Assembly (NCBI GenBank): GCA_021373185.1
Contig: JAJFTF010000024.1
Location: 248,001 to 312,000, forward strand
Direction of reading: 5' to 3'
Length of the DNA stretch: 64,000 nucleotides
Source: Betaproteobacteria bacterium
GTDB taxonomy: Bacteria > Pseudomonadota > Gammaproteobacteria > Burkholderiales > Sulfuricellaceae
Shown: positions 28,105-58,700 of the stretch, piece after piece
Layout of the letters: each line of letters opens with the position of its first letter
Numbering within the stretch: position 1 is the first letter of the stretch
Made by a program: the position numbers and the translations under genes
The notes under the pieces: generated by a model
The model's input: only the letters and a program-made list of their open reading frames with translations
What the model was told of the DNA's origin: nothing
The model's database searches: none

Positions 28105-28425
28105 CTATTTGTCGCTTTCAAGCAGGGGTAGCGCACCCTCGGCTTGGCCTTTTGACCGCTTCAAATCACGGTAGAAATTCTCATGTGGGCCAACCGCCAA
28201 AAGCACCCGTTTGCATTCATCCCACTGGTAAGCCAGTAAAAATTGCTGATTGACGCAATCGAACTTGTAGACAAAGACGCCGGAGAGATCGCCTTTCTTT
28301 TCCTCGCCCATAGTCGGATCAGCGATCACAATTCGAATAGCCGCATGGATGGCATTGCGCTGGTTTGCGTGTAGTTTCTTGTAGGCACGCTTGAACGCTG
28401 GCTTTTGTTCAAGCGAGATACTCAT
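28105..28425 (-). CDS. RelE/ParE-superfamily toxin
   Basis: 106 residues. The sequence pattern EQKPAFKRAYKKLHANQRNA, then YKFDCVNQQFLLAYQW and VLLAVGPHENFYRDLKR, is that of RelE/ParE toxins, probably ribosome-dependent mRNA interferases. The start overlaps the antitoxin stop (ATGA in reverse), the usual antitoxin-first arrangement. The C-terminal tail after FYRDLKR (about 17 residues) is longer than usual. Confidence 0.85.
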   Translation of the reverse strand: MSISLEQKPAFKRAYKKLHANQRNAIHAAIRIVIADPTMGEEKKGDLSGVFVYKFDCVNQQFLLAYQWDECKRVLLAVGPHENFYRDLKRSKGQAEGALPLLESDK

Positions 28426-28634
28426 GCTTCCGGCAGTTCGAAAGGCTCGGATTCCTCATCCATGGCAACCAGCACATCGCGAACGAATTCGACAGATAAA
28501 TCCGGATTATCCAGCGCCGCACGTCCTACCTTGGCCCAATAGGCAACCTGCTGCGGGATCGAGCGCATCTCGGCATTGGCCCGAACCTTGGCTGTCTGAT
28601 AAAGCGCATCGTCAATACGAATGGAAACGCTCAT
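28422..28634 (-). CDS. ParD-like antitoxin
   Basis: 70 residues. It begins MSVSIRIDDALYQTAKVRA, with a ribbon-helix-helix-type N-terminus (ParD-like family) and an acidic C-terminal toxin-binding tail (MDEESEPFELPEA). ATG at 28634 follows an AGGGGTGG ribosome site. An upstream in-frame start at 28733 would add an unrelated hydrophobic stretch. It would bind and neutralise the RelE-like toxin encoded directly downstream and repress its own promoter. Confidence 0.82.
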   Translation of the reverse strand: MSVSIRIDDALYQTAKVRANAEMRSIPQQVAYWAKVGRAALDNPDLSVEFVRDVLVAMDEESEPFELPEA

Positions 28635-28866
28635 TTTTGCCACCCCTGTAGTTAATTGCCACAATTGTAGCGTAGTCGAATACAAGAAAAACCACAAGTC
28701 TGCCTCACGACTGACAATTGACGGACGCTTCATAGCATCGACCAGAAAACCGTAATTTTTCCCTGCTGTTCCGGGGTTAGGCTTTTAATTTGAACCCGAC
28801 CCCTTTAATCCATTAGCCAGTACGGCTTTATTGCACAGTGTCCGATTGAGTGTAAGTTTAGTTGAA

Positions 28867-29592
28867 CTAGTCAATCTTGACCTTTCCCGAGCCGCCGCAG
28901 GCTGGATGCAATATTCTGCGATTGGCCTCGTCGATACCACGGTCAAGATTTAGAGTGAAGCCAGGGGGGCCGAAGCTCATTAAGAAGCGGCCTTCACCTT
29001 GTTTTGCGTTCTTTGTTTTTCGGATGTCGAAAGCTTTGTATCGTTCAGCGAGTTGATCTCGAACCTCAGACTGCTGCTCATCAGAAATTGCAGCCGGGAA
29101 GCTACGTGTAATTTTAACCACTCTCCATTGCTGCTTCGACGTATCGGCTTGGTTCGGTATCAATGCGATAGTGACGCGGGTTGGGTTTCCAACCTGCGTG
29201 GTGTAAGCACCAATAAGTTCGCCCTTTGGGCCACTAAATGGGTTTGTAGAACAGACCGCAGCAACACGAGCAAGTATTGACAAGGTGCTCCCATCAAAGG
29301 AATTCTCATACAAATATGGCGCAGCTTGCATGACATCGCCGCGGAACTGAGACTGCACCATTTTTAATTCCTCTGGTCGCAATTTCCGTGTCGAGGTGAG
29401 GTGCGGAGCGCGTCCAATCGGTAGGTCTGGGTTTTGGGCTCGGCTCCATTGTATTTTTCCGAGTTCGCCAAGGCCGTCTCCAAGGCAGACTTCTGCCACG
29501 CAGGGGAGACCGTTCTTCTCGAACTCAGCGGCTATACATACGGATGGTATTGCTATGGCAGAGATGGCAATTAGAACAGCCCTTAATGACAT
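28867..29592 (-). CDS. Orphan exported protein of unknown function
   Basis: 241 residues. A Sec signal peptide (about residues 1-22, MSLRAVLIAISAIAIPSVCIAA) is followed by a domain with several Cys (CVAEVCLGDGLGELGKI, AAVCSTNPFSG, HPACGGSG). No family was recognised. Base composition is lower in GC than its neighbours. It sits with the toxin-antitoxin pair between the nor and nnrS regions, so recent acquisition is plausible. There is no operon partner. Confidence 0.65.
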   Translation of the reverse strand: MSLRAVLIAISAIAIPSVCIAAEFEKNGLPCVAEVCLGDGLGELGKIQWSRAQNPDLPIGRAPHLTSTRKLRPEELKMVQSQFRGDVMQAAPYLYENSFDGSTLSILARVAAVCSTNPFSGPKGELIGAYTTQVGNPTRVTIALIPNQADTSKQQWRVVKITRSFPAAISDEQQSEVRDQLAERYKAFDIRKTKNAKQGEGRFLMSFGPPGFTLNLDRGIDEANRRILHPACGGSGKVKID

Positions 29593-29787: not shown

Positions 29788-31014
29788 CTATCCCGGCTGC
29801 CCATCCGACCGTGGCCGCCAGAACTTCGGCGCATATTTGACGAACCAGGGCACATAACACGCCAGCCAGATCGCCGCCGCCAGCAGGTAGAAATGCCCCG
29901 CCACGCCGCCGGCCAGCGGCAAATCGCCGCCGATACGCGCCAGCGTGGCGAACTGGAACCCCAGGAACAACCCCCAGGTAACGCCATCCGCCTTGAGCTC
30001 GCCGCCGGAGTGGCCGAGCGTAACGCGCGAGGCCATGCCCAGCACCATCGAGGCGAACAGGCCAACCGTCAAGGCGTGAAGCGGTGCAAAACCGAGAATC
30101 GGGTGATCCATCAGCAGCGCCAGGCTCTGCACCGCATACAGCGCCAGTGCAACGGAAAGCCAGGCGAAGGCGATTTGCAGCACCGCCAGCAAGCGCACTT
30201 CAAGGCTGCGGCGCAACTGCCAGTGCCAGCTCAGGTAGAGCGTCTGCGCCAGCAGGGGCAGGTCGAACAGCCACAGCCAGATGTTGCCGCCAAATATCTC
30301 CAGCACGCCATGTCCGCAACTGCACACCAGCATCACCCACAAGGCATTCTGCGGACGGACAATGCGGTAGTTGTCCAACACCCGGCTGGAGAAAAACGGG
30401 ATCATGCGATGGGCGACGGTAAAGAAAATCGGCAGCAGGAAAAACCAGATCCCGGCCTTGAAAGCGAACACCACGAACAGCGCATTGCCGGTGATCAGCC
30501 ACCACAGGTAAGCCAGCATGCCGAGCCAGCCCGCCGTCAGGGCGGCGCTGGTGATTTTCGGGTGCAGCTTGTCGGGGTGGCGCGAGGTGATCAGCACGTG
30601 GAACAAGGCGTAAAGTGCGATGCCCCAACCGCCCAGCATCAGTGCGACTCCGGCGATCAGCAGCGGCTTGCCCGCCAGCAGGCCGAGGTAATACAGCAGC
30701 ACGCCAGCCGCCGACAGCAAGAAGGCTGGCACATAATGGCGCGGCGGCACTTTTTCGCCGTTCATCCAACTAGGGTAAGTGGTCATCAGGAAGCCGAAGA
30801 TGAAGAACGGGAAGAAGCCGTAAATCATCAGGAATCCGTGCGCCCAGGTCGCGGGAACTTCCCAGGCAGGGAGCTGCCACACAGAGGTGTAGCGGCCCAG
30901 CAATTCGACCAGCCACCAGGCGATCACAGCCACGCCCTGCGTGGCGCCGGCGAGGAACATCATGCGGTGCGGCGCGGCGGAGAATGCGCGCCAGGTAGCG
31001 GAAAATTGGGGCAT
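29788..31014 (-). CDS. nnrS: NnrS family haem-copper membrane protein
   Basis: 408 residues with about 12 membrane helices. Family signatures are WAHGFLMIYGFFPFFIFGFL near the N-terminus, VFAFKAGIWFFLLPIFFTVAHRMIPFF in the middle and LHALTVGLFASMVLGMASRVTLGHSG near the end. NnrS proteins contain haem and copper and lessen nitrosative stress; they are expressed with nir/nor regulons. It is divergent from the first kinase gene with a 176-base gap that shows no FNR-type palindrome. Confidence 0.92.
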   Translation of the reverse strand: MPQFSATWRAFSAAPHRMMFLAGATQGVAVIAWWLVELLGRYTSVWQLPAWEVPATWAHGFLMIYGFFPFFIFGFLMTTYPSWMNGEKVPPRHYVPAFLLSAAGVLLYYLGLLAGKPLLIAGVALMLGGWGIALYALFHVLITSRHPDKLHPKITSAALTAGWLGMLAYLWWLITGNALFVVFAFKAGIWFFLLPIFFTVAHRMIPFFSSRVLDNYRIVRPQNALWVMLVCSCGHGVLEIFGGNIWLWLFDLPLLAQTLYLSWHWQLRRSLEVRLLAVLQIAFAWLSVALALYAVQSLALLMDHPILGFAPLHALTVGLFASMVLGMASRVTLGHSGGELKADGVTWGLFLGFQFATLARIGGDLPLAGGVAGHFYLLAAAIWLACYVPWFVKYAPKFWRPRSDGQPG

Positions 31015-31190
31015 ATGGCGAACCTGAATCTACTGTCGAAGCGTTATTTTAACCCGGTTCGCCCTGCCGGCTGCGCCAGACTATTAACTTTCTGTAATAT
31101 CTATTGCACAATGGCGCTATATTCAAGCGCGGCTCAGGCATATATCGCCTTCACCGGCACCAGACAGCGAGCGCCTTCAGAAAAGAACAC

Positions 31191-33590
31191 GTGAATCAAA
31201 CCATAAAAAACATCGGTCGCTTCGAGATCATCCGGATTCTGGGCCGGGGCGCGCAAAGCGTGGTCTATCTGGCCTTCGACCCGAACCTGCAACGCCAGGT
31301 GGCGATCAAGACCCTGCATTTTTCCGGGGTGGCAAACCGGGAGGACAAGGTTCAGGCCCTGATTCAGGAATCGCGCACCGTCAGCCAGTTGCGCCATCCC
31401 AACATCGTTCCGATTTTCGAGGCCGGGGAACACGAAGGCGACCCCTACCTGGTATTCGAATATGTCGAAGGCCAGACCCTGGCCGAATTGCTGCGCGAGC
31501 AGGGAGCGCTGCGCGCCAGCGAGGCGGTTGAGATCATGATCGCCGTGCTGGAAGCCACCGCCCATGCGCACCGCAACGGCATCATCCACCGCGACCTGAA
31601 GCCCTCCAACATCCTGATCGGCCCGGAAGGCACCCCGCGAGTGATGGATTTCGGCATTGCCGCCCGCATCTCCGACGACCCGGAGGAAGATTCAGGACTG
31701 ACCGGCACGCCGGCCTACATGGCGCCGGAATACATCCAGTCGAAAACCGTCAGCGAGAAAACCGACATTTTCGCCGCCGGCCTGATCCTCTGCGAAATCG
31801 TCGCCGGTCGCAAGGCGGTGCCGGGCAAGGACATCTACCAGATCATGCACCACATCGCGTCGGAGGCGATTGAACTGCCCCCCGGCAGCGAAACCGCCAT
31901 CGACGAAAAGTTGGGCGATATCATCCTCAAAGCGCTGGCGCGCGACCCGCTCGACCGCTATGCCAGCGCCCAGGAAATGCGCGATGCACTGCACGCCTAC
32001 CTGATGGCCGGCGACCAGGAAGCGCATCCAAACCCTTCCGAGAAAGCGACGCAAAGCACGCTGGAATTTCTGGTGCGGCGGATGCGCCACAAGAGTGATT
32101 TCCCCGCGCTGTCGGAATCGGTCAGCGCCATCAACCGCATCGCCGCCTCTGAAACGGAAAGCATCAATAAACTTTCCAACTTGATCCTGAGGGATTTCGC
32201 GCTCACCTACAAAATCCTGAAAATGGTCAACACCGCCTTCTACAAATCGTATGGCGGCGGCACCATCAGCACCATTTCGCGCGCCGTGATCATTCTCGGT
32301 TTCGATGCGGTGCGCAACATCGCCATCACCCTGATTTTGTTCGAGCACCTGCAGAACAAATCCCATGCGGCGCAGTTGAAGGATGAATTCCTCCGCAACC
32401 TGTTCAGCGCCATCCTGGCCCGAAATATCGCCGCCCGGCAAGGCGAGAAAGACCCGGAAGAGGTTTTCGTCTGCGCCTTGTTTCACAATCTGGGACGGTT
32501 GCTGTCGATGTTCTATTTCCCGGAAGAGGCGAACGCCGTGATCAAGATCATGGCGCAGAAGGAATGCAGCGAAGATGTCGCATCCGCCCAGGTGCTGGAC
32601 ATTTCCTATGAAGAGATGGGCATTGGCATCGCCAGGATGTGGGGGTTCCCGGAACAGATATCCAACAGCATGCGCAAGCTGACATCCGATATTGTTCGCG
32701 CCCCCAAAACCGCCATGGACAAGCTGCGCATCATCGCCGGGTTCTCCAGCGAATTATGCGACAGCATCGCCCGCACCCCGCTCAGCGACAAAAACAAAGC
32801 GGTCAGGAAAATCACCGCACACTTCGGCGACCATATGCCGATTGCGGAAAAACACCTGCACCCGGTGCTGGAAAAATCTCTCGACGAAATCACCCAGTAC
32901 GCCAGCACCGTCCGAACGAGTTTGCAGCAGAGCCAGTTCGGCAAGCAAGTCGCGCTCTGGGTCGGGCGGGATGTCAGGACGGAAGTCGAAACGGCGCCGC
33001 TGGACGACATCACGGAAGGCGTAGTACTGGCCCAGGCAACCCTGCTGGAGCCGGCGGAAAGCAGGCCGAACGCCGACGATGCGCGGGCCATTCTCACAGC
33101 CGGCATTCAGGATATCAGCAATTCGCTGGTGGACAACTGTTCGCTCAACGACATCCTGCGCATGATCCTGGAAACCATGTATCGGAGCATGGGGTTCCAG
33201 CATGTCCTGTTGTGCATCAAGGACGGCAAACAGAACGTCATGCAGGGACGCTTCGGCTTCGGCGCGGACATCAACCCGATGGCAAAGAATTTCAAGTTTC
33301 CGCTGAGCTACTCGGCGGACGTGTTCCACGCCGCCATCTCCAAAGGCGTGGACATCCTGATTTCCGATATCAACGACCCGAAAATCAAGCCGCACATTCC
33401 GGACTGGTATCGCAAGACCATTGCATCCCAGACTTTTTTGCTGTTCCCGCTCAACATCAAGAACGTGCCGGTGGCCCTGATCTACGCCGACAAGGAACGC
33501 GCTGGCGATATCGTCATGCCCGAAAATGAATTGAGCCTGCTGAGAACCCTGCGCAACCAGGCTATTCTGGCAATCCGGCAGTCACTCTGA
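31191..33590 (+). CDS. Ser/Thr protein kinase-HDOD-GAF protein, copy 1
   Basis: 799 residues. The Hanks-type kinase domain (about 10-275) has a Gly loop LGRGAQSVVYLA, K40 in VAIKTL, H133-R-D135 in HRDLKPSN, D153-F-G and APE, so it looks catalytically complete. A HDOD domain follows (about 300-500; DFPALSESVSAINRI, FYKSYGGGTISTISRAVIILG). A GAF-like sensor domain is at the C-terminus (about 635-799; SLNDILRMILETMYRSMGF). GTG at 31191 gives MNQTIKNIGRFEII, which aligns with the start of the paralogue at 34092. The role is unknown; HDOD proteins often control signalling or motility, and the GAF suggests a small-ligand or redox input. Confidence 0.88.
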   Translation: MNQTIKNIGRFEIIRILGRGAQSVVYLAFDPNLQRQVAIKTLHFSGVANREDKVQALIQESRTVSQLRHPNIVPIFEAGEHEGDPYLVFEYVEGQTLAELLREQGALRASEAVEIMIAVLEATAHAHRNGIIHRDLKPSNILIGPEGTPRVMDFGIAARISDDPEEDSGLTGTPAYMAPEYIQSKTVSEKTDIFAAGLILCEIVAGRKAVPGKDIYQIMHHIASEAIELPPGSETAIDEKLGDIILKALARDPLDRYASAQEMRDALHAYLMAGDQEAHPNPSEKATQSTLEFLVRRMRHKSDFPALSESVSAINRIAASETESINKLSNLILRDFALTYKILKMVNTAFYKSYGGGTISTISRAVIILGFDAVRNIAITLILFEHLQNKSHAAQLKDEFLRNLFSAILARNIAARQGEKDPEEVFVCALFHNLGRLLSMFYFPEEANAVIKIMAQKECSEDVASAQVLDISYEEMGIGIARMWGFPEQISNSMRKLTSDIVRAPKTAMDKLRIIAGFSSELCDSIARTPLSDKNKAVRKITAHFGDHMPIAEKHLHPVLEKSLDEITQYASTVRTSLQQSQFGKQVALWVGRDVRTEVETAPLDDITEGVVLAQATLLEPAESRPNADDARAILTAGIQDISNSLVDNCSLNDILRMILETMYRSMGFQHVLLCIKDGKQNVMQGRFGFGADINPMAKNFKFPLSYSADVFHAAISKGVDILISDINDPKIKPHIPDWYRKTIASQTFLLFPLNIKNVPVALIYADKERAGDIVMPENELSLLRTLRNQAILAIRQSL

Positions 33591-33611
33591 GAACCGGGAG
33601 GATATCTTCTC

Positions 33612-34010
33612 ATGATGGAATATATATTTTTCGATGAAACGTTATGCGCCCGCTTTATCGAATTCGCACACCGACTCGATGTGCCCTGCCAGCAGAAACA
33701 GGACGACATGGGCATCACCGTGGCCGTGCCGGAGGATCTGGATGACAGCGTGGCCAATAGCCTGGAAACTCATTACGACCTGTTGCTGGAAGAGCAGGCC
33801 GAGCTGACGGACGAAACCGAACCCGACCAGAAGCATGCAGCGGCAATCTGTATCAACCTTGCCGACGGGCGCCCCTGTACCATCCGCATCGAACCGGCCA
33901 TAATGGGACGACTGATGGGTTGCCTGAGCATCGAGGAAATTCATGCGCTCGCAACCACCATCGCTCGCAACGTGGAAAACCCGAACGACAAGCCGCTATG
34001 CCACACCTGA
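33612..34010 (+). CDS. Small acidic protein between the two kinases, unknown function
   Basis: 132 residues, acidic, no signal peptide or membrane span. It has IFFDETLCARFIEFAHRLDV and EEQAELTDETEPDQKHAAA, then a GRPCTIRIEPAIMGRLMGCLS segment. A GGGAGG ribosome site lies about 10 bases before the ATG at 33612. No family was recognised. Being sandwiched between two nearly identical kinase genes, it may be a substrate or regulator of them; this is inference from position only. Confidence 0.7.
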   Translation: MMEYIFFDETLCARFIEFAHRLDVPCQQKQDDMGITVAVPEDLDDSVANSLETHYDLLLEEQAELTDETEPDQKHAAAICINLADGRPCTIRIEPAIMGRLMGCLSIEEIHALATTIARNVENPNDKPLCHT

Positions 34011-34091
34011 CCGGTTTCACGCTTGTTTCGGCGGCTTGCAAGATAGCGTATTTTAGAAAATCACCTGGCAAGAATATCGTTCAAAAAACAT

Positions 34092-36512
34092 ATGGAACCA
34101 GTTTCACAAAATATCGATAGATTCGAAATCATCCGAAATCTGGGCGGGGACGCGCAGAGTCGGGTTTATCTCGCTTATGATCCGAACCTGCAGCGCGAGG
34201 TGGCGATCAAGACCCTGCATGTCGCCGAAACAACCAACCGCCAGGACGAGATTCAGGCATTGATCCGTGAATCGCGCACCGTCAGCCAGTTGCGCCATCC
34301 CAACATCGTCCCGATTTTCGAGGCCGGGGAATATGAGGGCGACCCCTATCTGGTATTCGAATACATCAAGGGCCAGACCCTGGCCGACCTGCTGGAAAAA
34401 AGGAAGGCACTGCCCGTCAGCGAGGCGCTCGACATCATCGGCCCGGTGCTGGACGCCCTCGCACATGCGCACCAGAACGGCATCATCCACCGCGATCTCA
34501 AGCCTTCCAACATTCTGATTCCCCAGGACGAGCCGCCCCGTGTGATGGATTTCGGCATTGCCGAACACATCGACAGCCCCGATGGGGAAAACCCCCTGAT
34601 GGGCACGCCGGCCTATATGGCGCCGGAATACATCAATAGCCGGACAATCAGCGAGAAGAACGACATCTTCGCCGCCGGCCTGATTCTCTACGAAATGCTC
34701 GTCGGCCATCAAGCCGTGCGCGGCGACGATATCAACGAAATCATGCAGCGCATCGCCGCCGGCCCCATCGCGCCGCCGATAAACGACGAAGCGCCCATTG
34801 ACGACAAACTCGCCAACATCATCCTCAAGGCAATCGCCTTCGATCCGCTGGATCGCTACGCCAGCGCCGGGGAGATGGAAGAGGCATTGCACGCCTATTC
34901 GCAGGCGGAGGAGGATGAGGATCTGCACCCTTCTGGAGAGTCGAGGCAGGGTACCCTGGATTTCCTGCTGCGGCGCATGCGCCACAAGAGCGATTTCCCC
35001 GCATTGTCGGAATCGGTCAGCGCCATCAACCGCATCACCTCCTCCGAAATGGAAAGCGCCAGCAAGCTCGCCAATTCGATTCTGCGGGATGTCGCCCTCA
35101 CCAACAAGATACTGAAACTGGTCAACGCCGCCTTCTACAAATCCTACGGCGGCGGCACCATCAGCACCATCTCGCGCGCCGTGATCATTCTCGGTTTCGA
35201 CGCGGTGCGCAACATCGCCATCACCCTGATCCTGTTCGAGCACTTGCAGAACAAGTCCCATGCAGAACAATTGAAGGATGAGTTTGTCCGCGCCCTGTTC
35301 AGCGCCATCCTGGCCAAAAGAATTTCTGCCGGCCAAGGGGCGAAAGACCCGGAAGAGGCGTTTATCTGCGCCATGTTTCACAATCTCGGACGGCTCTTGG
35401 CAATGTTCTATTTTCCCGAGGAGGCCATCGCCGTCACCAGGGTCATGGAGCAGAAAGGGTGCAGCGAGGATGCCGCCTCCAACCAGGTGCTGGGCATTTC
35501 CTATCAGGATTTGGGTATCGGTATTGCCAAGGTTTGGGGATTCCCGGAACAGATCGTGCACAGCATGCGCAAACTGCCGCCCGATTCCGTCCCCCGTCCA
35601 AGATCACCGATGGATCAACTGCGAATCATTTCCGGTTTCTCCAGCGAACTTTGCACGACTATCGCCAATACTCCGCGCGAGAACCGACTCAAGGAAATCA
35701 GGAAGCTCTCCGGTCGCTTCGGCGACCATATGCCGGTTGCGGAGAAGCAGGTACCCCATACGCTGGATAAATCTCTTGAAGAAATCACCCAATACGCCAG
35801 CACGGTAAGGGTAAGCCTGACGCAAAGCCAATTCGGCAAGCAGCTCGCGATCTGGGCGGGTCACCCCGAAATTGAGGAAAAGGTCGAAGAGACCGCTGCG
35901 CTGGATCTGAACACTCTGGTGCTCAGCACCGTGCAGGAATTCAAATCGAAGCCCACCACGTCACTGGATATGGATGAAGCCAGTGCGGAACCGGTCACCC
36001 CGCAAACACGCCTGACCGCCGGCATTCAGGACATCAGCAATTCGCTGGTAATCGACGGTTGCTCGCTCAACGACATCCTGCGCATGATCCTCGAAACCAT
36101 GTACCGCGGCATGGGCTTCCAGCGCGTGATGCTGTGCATCAAGGACGGCAAGCAGAACGTCATGCAGGGACGCTTCGGCTTCGGCCTGGAGATCACCCAG
36201 ACCGCCAAAAATTTCAGGATTCCGCTCGCTTACACGCCGGATGTCTTCCACGCTGCCATGTCCAGGGGCGTGGACATCCTGATTTCCGACATCAACGACC
36301 CGAAAATCAGGCCGCACATCCCGGACTGGTATCGCAAGAACATCGCTGCCCAGACTTTCGCGCTGTTCCCGCTCAACATCAAGAATGTGCCGGTCGCGCT
36401 GATCTATGTCGACAAGGCGCAGGCCGGCGACATCCGCATCCCGGATGCCGAACTGAACCTGTTGAGAACCCTGCGCAACCAGGCCATCATGGCGATCAAG
36501 CAGGCACTCTGA
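34092..36512 (+). CDS. Ser/Thr protein kinase-HDOD-GAF protein, copy 2
   Basis: 806 residues with the same three domains as copy 1 and the same motif numbering (K40, H133-R-D135). The Gly-rich loop is degenerate (LGGDAQSRVYLA), whereas HRDLKPSN, DFG and APE are intact. HDOD (about 300-500) and C-terminal GAF (about 640-806) are very similar to copy 1, with long identical stretches such as NKSHA in a matching context. This indicates tandem duplication with divergence mainly in the linker between HDOD and GAF. Function unknown. Confidence 0.87.
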   Translation: MEPVSQNIDRFEIIRNLGGDAQSRVYLAYDPNLQREVAIKTLHVAETTNRQDEIQALIRESRTVSQLRHPNIVPIFEAGEYEGDPYLVFEYIKGQTLADLLEKRKALPVSEALDIIGPVLDALAHAHQNGIIHRDLKPSNILIPQDEPPRVMDFGIAEHIDSPDGENPLMGTPAYMAPEYINSRTISEKNDIFAAGLILYEMLVGHQAVRGDDINEIMQRIAAGPIAPPINDEAPIDDKLANIILKAIAFDPLDRYASAGEMEEALHAYSQAEEDEDLHPSGESRQGTLDFLLRRMRHKSDFPALSESVSAINRITSSEMESASKLANSILRDVALTNKILKLVNAAFYKSYGGGTISTISRAVIILGFDAVRNIAITLILFEHLQNKSHAEQLKDEFVRALFSAILAKRISAGQGAKDPEEAFICAMFHNLGRLLAMFYFPEEAIAVTRVMEQKGCSEDAASNQVLGISYQDLGIGIAKVWGFPEQIVHSMRKLPPDSVPRPRSPMDQLRIISGFSSELCTTIANTPRENRLKEIRKLSGRFGDHMPVAEKQVPHTLDKSLEEITQYASTVRVSLTQSQFGKQLAIWAGHPEIEEKVEETAALDLNTLVLSTVQEFKSKPTTSLDMDEASAEPVTPQTRLTAGIQDISNSLVIDGCSLNDILRMILETMYRGMGFQRVMLCIKDGKQNVMQGRFGFGLEITQTAKNFRIPLAYTPDVFHAAMSRGVDILISDINDPKIRPHIPDWYRKNIAAQTFALFPLNIKNVPVALIYVDKAQAGDIRIPDAELNLLRTLRNQAIMAIKQAL

Positions 36513-36623: not shown

Positions 36624-37604
36624 ATGGTTCTTTCCGACCGCATCAACACCTTTGGGCAACTCCTGCTGCGACGCCACGGCGAGCGCGTGCACAAGATCGC
36701 GCTCGACGCCGGTCTGACCTGCCCCAACCGCGACGGCAGCAAGGGTATCGGCGGCTGCACCTTTTGCAACAACGAGTCGTTCAGCCCGAACGGTCACCAG
36801 CCGCCCACCTTGCAGCAGCAACTGGATTCGGGCCGGAACTCGATCCTCAAGCGCACGCGGGCGACAAAATTCATCGCCTATTTTCAGGCCTATACCAACA
36901 CCTACGGCAAGGTCGAGCAATTGCGCGCCATGTACGAGCAAGCGCTGGCCGCACCGGACATGATCGGGCTGTCCATCGGCACCCGTCCCGACTGCGTGCC
37001 GCCGGAAGTGCTCGACCTGCTGGCCGGATACTGCGAGCGCGGCCTCGAAGTGGTGCTTGAACTCGGCCTGCAATCGTCTTTCGACGAAACCCTGAATCGG
37101 GTCAATCGCGGCCATGGCCTAGCGGAATACATTACCACCGTCACCGCTGCGCGCGCGCGCGGCATCCCGGTCTGCACCCACCTGATCGTCGGCCTGCCCG
37201 GCGAAACCGAGGAGCACTACCACGCCAGCCTGGATACCGTGCTGGAATATGGCGTCGACGGTCTCAAACTGCATCCGCTGCACGTCGTCAAGCATACAGC
37301 GCTGGCCAACGAATGGCGGCGCGGCGAATACCAGCCGCTCAGCCAACCGGACTACACCCGGATTGTTGCCGACCTGATTGAACGAACGCCGGAAGATATT
37401 GTCTACCACCGGGTTACCGGCACGGCATCCAGGGATATCCTGCTTGCTCCCGACTGGTGCTCGAAAAAATGGGACGTGCTGAATGGCATCGAACGCGAAC
37501 TGCGGGGGCGCAACAGCCGCCAGGGCGCAGCCGCCCGCCCCGCAACGAAACACGACGAGCTCGCCCGCTCAGTAATCGAGGAGAAATTAAGACATGTCGC
37601 CTAA
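36624..37604 (+). CDS. YhcC-like radical SAM protein (TIGR01212 family)
   Basis: 326 residues. The cluster cysteines are C33, C45 and C48 in CPNRDGSKGIGGCTFC, the unusual long-spaced radical SAM motif of this family. IGTRPDCVPPEVLDLL and CTHLIVGLPGETEEH follow. The C-terminus contains ILLAPDWCSKKW. The reaction is unknown. The start codon of ubiU lies inside its 3' end (11-base overlap), so the two are co-translated, linking it to anaerobic ubiquinone synthesis genes. Confidence 0.87.
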   Translation: MVLSDRINTFGQLLLRRHGERVHKIALDAGLTCPNRDGSKGIGGCTFCNNESFSPNGHQPPTLQQQLDSGRNSILKRTRATKFIAYFQAYTNTYGKVEQLRAMYEQALAAPDMIGLSIGTRPDCVPPEVLDLLAGYCERGLEVVLELGLQSSFDETLNRVNRGHGLAEYITTVTAARARGIPVCTHLIVGLPGETEEHYHASLDTVLEYGVDGLKLHPLHVVKHTALANEWRRGEYQPLSQPDYTRIVADLIERTPEDIVYHRVTGTASRDILLAPDWCSKKWDVLNGIERELRGRNSRQGAAARPATKHDELARSVIEEKLRHVA

Positions 37605-38607
37605 AGCTGCTCTGGAACTGGTTTGCCCGGCGGGCAACCTGCCCGCCCTGAAGGTCGCCGTCGACCACGGCGCCGACTGCGTCTACATGGGTTTCAAGGA
37701 CAACACCAACGCGCGCGCCTTCCCCGGCCTGAATTTCGACAAGGCCAGCGCCGCTGAAGGCGTGCGCTATGCCCATGCCAAGGGTGCCAAGGTGCTGCTG
37801 GCGCTCAACACCTTCCCCCAGTCCGACAAGTGGGAGCGCTGGCAGGGCGCAGTGGATAACGCCGCAGAACTGGGCATCGACGCCGTTATCCTGGCCGATC
37901 CCGGCCTGATGCGCTACGCGGCAAAAACCTATCCGAACCTGCGCCTGCATTTATCGGTTCAGGGCTCCGCCACCAATTACGAAGCGATCAACTTCTACCA
38001 TGAGCATTTCGGCATCCAGCGCGCCGTGATCCCGCGCGTGCTGTCGCTGGCGCAGGTCGAGCAGGTAGTGAAAAATACCCCGGTGGAAATCGAACTGTTC
38101 GGCTTCGGCGGCTTGTGCGTCATGGTCGAGGGACGTTGCGCGCTGTCTTCCTACGCCACCGGCGAATCGCCCAATACCTGCGGCGTATGCTCACCGGCCA
38201 AGGCGGTACGCTGGGAACAAACTCCGAAGGGCCTGGAATCGCGCCTCAACGGCATTCTGCTTGACCGCTACGACAAGGAAGAAAACGCCGGCTACCCGAC
38301 CCTGTGCAAGGGCCGTTTCGAGGTCAACAACGAAACCTACTACGCCATCGAGGAGCCGACCAGCCTCAACACCCTGGAGATGCTGCCGGAAATGCTTGAT
38401 ATCGGCATCGCCGCGATCAAGATCGAAGGCCGCCAGCGCAGCCCGGCCTATGTCGAGCAAGTCACCAAGGTATGGCGCACCGCCATCGATTCCGCCAAGC
38501 GCGCACCGCAAAGCTACTCGGTCAATCCGGCATGGATGGCGCAACTCAACAACGTCGCCGAAGGCCAGCAGAATACGCTGGGCGCATATAACCGTCCGTG
38601 GAAATAG
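37594..38607 (+). CDS. ubiU: UbiU, O2-independent ubiquinone hydroxylation protein (U32 family)
   Basis: 337 residues, peptidase-U32-like fold. Four conserved Cys that hold a [4Fe-4S] cluster are visible: GLCVMVEGRC, SPNTCGVC and PTLCKGRFE. ELVCPAGNLPALKVAVDHGAD is the typical start. With UbiV it forms a complex that, with prephenate as oxygen source in E. coli, hydroxylates ubiquinone precursors without O2 (family knowledge). Overlaps the YhcC-like gene. Downstream is an inverted-repeat element, then ubiV. Confidence 0.93.
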   Translation: MSPKAALELVCPAGNLPALKVAVDHGADCVYMGFKDNTNARAFPGLNFDKASAAEGVRYAHAKGAKVLLALNTFPQSDKWERWQGAVDNAAELGIDAVILADPGLMRYAAKTYPNLRLHLSVQGSATNYEAINFYHEHFGIQRAVIPRVLSLAQVEQVVKNTPVEIELFGFGGLCVMVEGRCALSSYATGESPNTCGVCSPAKAVRWEQTPKGLESRLNGILLDRYDKEENAGYPTLCKGRFEVNNETYYAIEEPTSLNTLEMLPEMLDIGIAAIKIEGRQRSPAYVEQVTKVWRTAIDSAKRAPQSYSVNPAWMAQLNNVAEGQQNTLGAYNRPWK

Positions 38608-38727: not shown

Positions 38728-39642
38728 ATGAAATTAGCCCTAGGCCCCATCCTCTTTTACTGGGAACGCGACACCACTTTCAGTTTTTACGACGAAGTCG
38801 CCGCTTCGTCGGTGGATATCGTCTATCTTGGCGAAGCCGTCTGCTCGCGCCGCCACACCCTGCGCACCGAAGACTGGCTTGAGCTTGCCGACAAGCTCGC
38901 CGCCGCCGGCAAGGAAGTCGTGCTCTCCACCCTGGCGTTGATCGAATCCGAATCCGACCTGAAGACCCTGCGCAGGATCACCGGCAACGGCAAGTTCATG
39001 GTGGAAGCCAACGACATGGGCGCGGTGCACCAGCTTTCCGCCGCCAAAATTCCCTTTGTCGCCGGCCCGCACATCAACACCTACAACCCGCAGACCTTGG
39101 GCCTTCTGGCTGAACTCGGCGCCAAGCGCTGGGTCATGCCGGTGGAAATGTCGCGCGAGGCGCTAACCCACATGCAAGCCACGCGCCCAGCCGGGATGGA
39201 AACCGAAGTGTTCGCTTACGGACGCCTGCCGCTGGCGTTCTCGGCGCGCTGCTTCACCGCCCGCCACTACAATTTGCCCAAGGACGACTGCCAGTTCCGC
39301 TGCATGGACTTCGCCAACGGCCTCACCCTGAAAACCCGCGAAGGTCAGCCTTTCCTCGCGCTGAACGGCATCCAGACGATGTCTGCCAGCATCTACAACC
39401 TGATCGGCGAACTCGACTCGATGCGCGCCACCGGCGTCGATGTGGTGCGCGTCAGTCCGCAGGCGTTCCACACCGACAAGATCATCAAGCTATACCGCGA
39501 CACGCTGGACGGCAAGCTCACCGCGCAGGCCGCCGCACAGCAAATGACCAAGCTGATGTTCGACCAACCCTGCGACGGCTACTGGCACGGCAAGCCGGGA
39601 ATCGAACAGAGCTACCTCGCTGCCGCCAAGGACACGGCTTAG
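38728..39642 (+). CDS. ubiV: UbiV, partner of UbiU (U32 family)
   Basis: 304 residues. Conserved Cys for a [4Fe-4S] cluster are present: one near residue 32 (GEAVCSRRHTL), then SARCFTARH and DDCQFRCMDF near 171-191. It begins MKLALGPILFYWERDT, as in UbiV. It forms the heterodimer with UbiU. The small cupin gene follows 18 bases downstream, then ubiT. Confidence 0.93.
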   Translation: MKLALGPILFYWERDTTFSFYDEVAASSVDIVYLGEAVCSRRHTLRTEDWLELADKLAAAGKEVVLSTLALIESESDLKTLRRITGNGKFMVEANDMGAVHQLSAAKIPFVAGPHINTYNPQTLGLLAELGAKRWVMPVEMSREALTHMQATRPAGMETEVFAYGRLPLAFSARCFTARHYNLPKDDCQFRCMDFANGLTLKTREGQPFLALNGIQTMSASIYNLIGELDSMRATGVDVVRVSPQAFHTDKIIKLYRDTLDGKLTAQAAAQQMTKLMFDQPCDGYWHGKPGIEQSYLAAAKDTA

Positions 39643-58591: not shown

Positions 58592-58605
58592 TTGATACAA
58601 ATCAA
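58592..58605. promoter_or_regulatory. FNR/Dnr-type site upstream of nirS
   Basis: TTGATACAAATCAA, a perfect TTGAT-N4-ATCAA palindrome, centred 114 bases before the nirS ATG. A class II promoter start would lie near 58557. It is the strongest of the three boxes seen. The 215-base nirS/menD gap contains nothing else convincing. Confidence 0.85.
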
Positions 58606-58700
58606 TATATCCATATAAAACATGTATTCATTAAGAGGCTTTAATGGGGTCAAATCGGCACCGCCTTGATCACGGCGCACCCAATATGAATCGCATAGAT

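Follow-up and report, generated by a model that had tools for sequence, protein, structure and literature searches.

Tandem Ser/Thr kinases with HDOD and GAF domains belong to a widespread, seemingly undescribed family and lie beside a conserved small acidic protein in Sulfuricella

In a Sulfuricella-type genome, we analysed a stretch of 64,000 nucleotides, here called the window, which carries two genes for proteins that join a kinase, an HDOD and a GAF domain (KHG1 and KHG2) and a small gene, S132, between them. The reading frames of all three are open and intact, and the locus is laid out as follows.

29788..31014, minus strand: nnrS (PF05940, 7.5e-69), the divergent neighbour of KHG1
31015..31190, plus strand: nnrS-KHG1 intergenic region; visual inspection of the alignment shows a conserved block around TATCTATTGCAnAAT compatible with a sigma-70-type promoter
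31191..33590, plus strand: KHG1, GTG start, 799 aa; kinase at ~11-261, HDOD at 305-495, a helical linker and GAF at ~640-799
33612..34010, plus strand: S132, 132 aa, acidic (calculated pI 4.34), member of a conserved family without a name
34092..36512, plus strand: KHG2, 806 aa, a paralogue of KHG1 with the same domains
36624..37604, plus strand: mnmL/ytqA, tRNA-modification radical SAM protein (TIGR01212, 358 bits, cut-off 180), the first gene 3′ of KHG2
37594..38607, plus strand: ubiU (with ubiV, NCBIfam pair NF047963/NF047965, above cut-off)
38728..39642, plus strand: ubiV (same NCBIfam pair, above cut-off)

The initial annotation had set the group next to nnrS, which it does adjoin, and before the anaerobic ubiquinone genes ubiU and ubiV, which do lie downstream but with mnmL/ytqA in between. 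Because the spacing is only 21 nt between KHG1 and S132 and 81 nt between S132 and KHG2, we infer that the three genes are transcribed as one operon; a GGAGG-like site precedes S132. The block at TATCTATTGCAnAAT fits a putative sigma-70-type promoter for the KHG operon, and the scan with promoter and terminator consensus sequences, whose matches were not above chance, missed this block. An Rfam scan returned no match near the KHG/S132 locus, and no FNR/DNR-like box was found between the divergent nnrS and KHG1. Across the whole window, near-matches to such a box numbered 38 vs 23 expected, and a perfect one, TTGATACAAATCAA, lies at 58592-58605, shortly upstream of an ORF at 58644 (241 aa, no Pfam match).

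In line with the initial annotation, both proteins of about 800 residues gave Pfam matches to a kinase, an HDOD and a GAF domain, with the GAF matches weaker than the others. KHG1 and KHG2 are ~70% identical over their full length. The Pfam kinase domain was matched with E-values of 1.9e-53 (KHG1) and 2.6e-51 (KHG2), and HDOD (PF08668, cut-off 22.9 bits) scored 132.8 and 131.8 bits, respectively (E 1.4e-38 and 2.9e-38). The best GAF/GAF_2 matches reached 1.2e-4 in KHG1 and 3.3e-5 in KHG2; for PF01590, with a cut-off of 22.4 bits, KHG2 passes with 24.9 and KHG1 falls below with 18.7, and the GAF_2 score of KHG1 (22.8 bits) is also below cut-off. We take the KHG proteins to be soluble and cytoplasmic; no transmembrane segment was found in them outside the HDOD core. 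The structure model comprises the kinase, the HDOD helices, a helix (628-647) that runs into the GAF domain and a terminal helix (778-798), with low confidence at HDOD residues 303-386, and its GAF region has a GAF-like alpha/beta layout. A Foldseek search with the whole model returned only kinases in the top rows. The only Cys and His residues common in the GAF domain are C675 (33/35) and H713 (31/35), neither of them invariant.

The catalytic Lys, the alpha-C Glu, HRD, the Asn and DFG are present in both KHG1 and KHG2. Among 35 aligned homologues, Lys40, Glu60, His133, Asp135, Asn140, Asp153 and Phe154 are essentially invariant, and the first five of these never vary among 76 distinct KHG kinases. 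The Gly-rich loop of KHG1 (LGRGAQS) keeps both glycines, whereas that of KHG2 (LGGDAQS) has an Asp at the second one (G20D), which is rare among the 76 kinases; at nine scored core positions, deviations occur only in KHG2 of the window, in the downstream copy of G140 and in L087. KHG1 is likely an active kinase. KHG2, with G20D in its nucleotide loop, is probably weaker or differently regulated, but it keeps Lys, HRD and DFG and may instead be fully active. The HDOD motif FHNLGR is devoid of the metal-binding Asp: KHG1, KHG2 and most members read HN in place of HD, and the rest have other residues there, with Asp in 2 of 76. Neither KHG1 nor KHG2 has the intact HD metal motif of HD-GYP proteins or catalytic HD phosphodiesterases. 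HDOD domains have been described as non-catalytic, with their mechanism not established (PMC6543031).

Among solved structures, Hanks kinases of the PknB/Stk1 type come closest both in sequence (PknB 6b2p, E 6.7e-45) and in fold, and KHG shares their catalytic motifs, apart from the Gly-rich loop of KHG2. KHG differs from these kinases in having HDOD and GAF domains instead of a transmembrane segment and PASTA repeats, and the NCBIfam PASTA-kinase model NF033483 matched the kinase part only, with a score of 262.6 vs a cut-off of 450. KHG resembles HDOD proteins (SadB, GsmR, MmoQ-like) in that its HDOD domain scores above the cut-off and has no intact HD metal motif, and the solved HDOD homologues 3hc1 and 3p3q (MmoQ) were matched with E-values of 1e-11 to 1e-14. 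Among known HDOD proteins, however, the domain stands with a YbaK-like domain (SadB), in the familiar receiver-HDOD combination or alone, whereas in KHG it is fused behind a Ser/Thr kinase. Further relatives are HDOD-GAF proteins of Desulfobulbaceae and some Betaproteobacteria that are ~32-50% identical over the HDOD-GAF half and have no kinase domain. Four such genes of Desulfobulbaceae/Desulfocapsaceae (L094 950-2533, L095 9010-10590, L096 2634-4217 and L100 7038-8621; ~527 aa) have no constant neighbour. One relative (L187 7800-9539) has the kinase and HDOD domains without GAF; its genome, G026, carries a full-length KHG as well. Similarly truncated matches were seen in G059, G075, G144 and G158.

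Strong matches to KHG were found in 89 of the 300 sampled genomes of the order (~30%), covering 40 of 134 genera, and in 15 of 229 genomes of the class sample. No paper describing the kinase-HDOD-GAF architecture was found in the literature searched, and KHG seems to be a widespread, undescribed kinase family. To our knowledge, soluble Ser/Thr kinases with a ligand-sensing domain of their own have been little studied in Proteobacteria, and the KHG family, by joining a kinase to HDOD, allows a direct test of what HDOD does, namely whether it passes the signal from GAF on to the kinase. An anti-phage role was considered and rejected, as the PADLOC matches (PD-T4-6, mad6 and others) fall on the kinase domain and extend at most into the HDOD region; no defence genes were noted near KHG among the genes examined. 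A dedicated phosphatase was likewise rejected because both PP2C genes detected (PF13672) sit at other places in the genome, one beside each of two other kinase-like genes (C54:25214-26664 and C49:30644-31977), whereas KHG has none beside it.

Most KHG genes are single-copy; six lineages with tandem pairs were seen, namely the window, G004/G010, G013/G015, G140, G294 and G465. The pair in the window had initially been taken for a duplication that suggested two inputs or a heteromeric pair. A recent tandem duplication is ruled out by the AU test, which rejected KHG1 and KHG2 as one clade (p-AU 1.3e-6); in the tree, KHG1 groups with G008 (100/100) and KHG2 with FK1/FK3 (93/95, short of conclusive). 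On these phylogenetic grounds, KHG1 and KHG2 are old paralogues. In G013/G015, the kinase of the downstream copy is gone and its HDOD-GAF part is kept (529-534 aa). The downstream copy of G140, a gene inside which the contig stops, has the Gly loop TLASSAQGQ, HGD for HRD and NFG for DFG, which clearly points to a predicted pseudokinase. Counting KHG2 of the window with its one Gly-loop change, three of the six lineages show kinase damage or loss in the downstream tandem copy; this enrichment of lesions in downstream copies (Fisher p = 0.01) is a post hoc observation from three lineages. The changed, dead or missing downstream kinases of these lineages give some evidence for divided roles of paired paralogues. 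Of the initial reading, the domain combination and the conserved small gene hold up, as does an operon-like layout, and the duplication is better read as old paralogy. If the recurrent loss of the kinase in second tandem copies is true, these loci would form a natural series of bacterial kinase-pseudokinase pairs.

Of 61 near genomes, 21 carry homologues of the gene between the two kinases, first described as conserved-looking and acidic; the one in the closest genome is 90% identical, and a dN/dS of ~0.1 against the nearest relative indicates purifying selection. S132 is a true conserved gene and a separate family, found in 27 of the 300 order genomes and 23 of the 229 class genomes. Searches for its family gave no Pfam, NCBIfam, PHROG or PADLOC match, and the best sequence-profile match in the PDB (E 0.3) is at chance level; among its relatives, Pfam gave weak matches to HepT-like (0.00099, one member) and prok_STING (0.022, five members), which were discarded as inconsistent across the family. 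The alignment of 21 sequences has 17 invariant columns, including the C-terminal Cys130, and no invariant Ser or Thr. In a model built from six sequences (mean pLDDT 78), the N-terminal half takes up a ferredoxin-like beta-alpha-beta-beta-alpha arrangement, and the C-terminal half is less certain, with low confidence. In the fold comparison, de novo designed ferredoxin folds came out highest; the N-terminal half resembles PstA and PII-like chains with Z ~7 over 60 residues, although Z of 7-8 may mean a common arrangement only. S132 has no sequence match and differs in the C-terminal half, itself of low confidence.

Sulfuricella genomes share the arrangement nnrS - KHG (one or two copies) - S132 - mnmL - ubiU - ubiV, whose counterpart in the sister genus (G013, G015) is nnrS - KHG - HDOD-GAF - S132. 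Nine genomes of these two genera have both KHG and S132, and in all nine the two are adjacent. The number of copies and their order vary, and S132 between two KHG genes was seen only in the window: the FK1 and FK3 records have KHG directly before mnmL, G006 has S132 beside nnrS and no KHG, and G005 and G009 (the latter only 74% complete) have KHG and no S132 match. Because several genomes are incomplete assemblies, isolated absences such as those in G006 and G009 may reflect gaps; neighbouring genes in the relatives' loci were called with a simple self-trained script, and several were named by eye. Outside Sulfuricella and the one sister genus, nnrS, norD, nsrR, ubiU/V and S132 are absent near KHG loci in the flanks read (up to ~9 kb). 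Counted from the genome lists of the KHG and S132 searches, KHG and S132 co-occur in 14 genomes of the order sample vs 8.0 expected (p 0.0095), in 6 vs 5.2 when the family of the window is left out (p 0.43) and in 3 vs 1.5 in the class sample (p 0.18). S132 itself has no constant partner across genera, and a function derived from its neighbours was therefore rejected; named by eye, these are moaC-like and molybdopterin oxidoreductase-like genes in the other genus of the family (g2), scpA/scpB/rluB-like and crcB-like genes in f34, and different ones in further genera.

The linkage in Sulfuricella could quite possibly, if tentatively, be the ordinary synteny of close relatives, functionally meaningless for the neighbours, which would fit either reading of the kinases given below. 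Consistent with this, mnmL and ubiUV stay with the whole block, seven genomes of g2 hold KHG and S132 unlinked, and the surroundings of KHG differ completely between families (rmuC-/bamD-like genes in Rhodocyclaceae; fliW-/hemN-/efp-like genes in g2); against it, the KHG-S132 pair is still adjacent after several local gene gains and losses.

To the domains, conservation, distribution, separability and lesions observed above we add a mechanism, inferred beyond domain presence, in ligand sensing, relay, partner role and operon alike. With a probability of roughly one half, we propose that KHG is a family of GAF-sensing Hanks kinases whose tandem copies are partners, with KHG1 active and KHG2 weaker or otherwise regulated. 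The C-terminal GAF domain would bind a small ligand, and the signal would pass through the flanking helices to the non-catalytic HDOD domain (HD changed to HN) and on to the N-terminal Ser/Thr kinase, of the PknB type, which would then phosphorylate its targets. In tandem pairs, complete kinase chemistry would come from the upstream copy, and the downstream copy could serve mainly through its HDOD-GAF sensor part. This part would also work without a kinase of its own, probably as a partner subunit; kinase-less HDOD-GAF proteins also stand alone in Desulfobulbaceae. S132 would be a separate ferredoxin-like protein that entered the operon in a common ancestor of Sulfuricella and its sister genus, perhaps as a partner or substrate of local importance, but not as a required part. 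The weaknesses of this explanation are that KHG neighbourhoods show no consistent pathway, that the GAF scores are weak, that KHG2 may be fully active, that the lesion statistic is post hoc and that a dead partner is no rule, since the pairs of G004/G010, G294 and G465 each have two kinases whose core motifs look intact.

Rather unlikely in our view are independent homodimeric kinases that serve two inputs, with the tandem arrangement due to dosage or chance and S132 a bystander: KHG genes are mostly single, KHG1 and KHG2 are old lineages and some pairs have two intact kinases, as this would predict, but kinase decay recurs and is limited to downstream tandem copies, and the HDOD-GAF half is retained where the kinase is lost. 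A further reading, in which several independent events paired an active kinase-HDOD-GAF protein with a tandem pseudokinase or kinase-less HDOD-GAF paralogue that it strictly needs for regulation, is improbable.

Least probable, and highly doubtful, is a dedicated three-gene module that responds to NO or anaerobiosis with S132 as the kinase substrate, since, although gene order is kept through ubiV in Sulfuricella and from nnrS to S132 in the sister genus across ~56-60% identity, S132 and KHG are adjacent in 9/9 genomes and S132 follows KHG1 at 21 nt with a GGAGG-like site, KHG and S132 are each common without the other and without NO genes, co-occur at chance beyond the family and are lost singly inside the genus, S132 has no Ser/Thr that is invariant in its family, the GAF domain has no invariant His/Cys set for a NorR-like iron centre, and an upstream FNR-like box is absent, with nnrS divergent. 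The tie to NO or anaerobic metabolism drawn in the initial annotation fails in the comparison of neighbourhoods among relatives, where linkage to nnrS, norD, nsrR, ubiUV and S132 is limited, in the loci read, to Sulfuricella and one sister genus and KHG is otherwise scattered without S132 or denitrification neighbours, the very outcome that the annotation had named as refuting it. Any link of KHG to NO or anaerobic life reflects no more than the chance gene order of this genus.

On the far side of the locus, the minus strand at 28867-29592 encodes a 241-aa protein of no Pfam family with a signal-peptide-like start. Between the norD/nsrR cluster and nnrS, a ParE-like toxin (PF15781) and a ParD-like antitoxin (PF11903) are encoded at 28105-28733 on the minus strand, and related genes lie at the matching place in G004 (L042 18323-18819).
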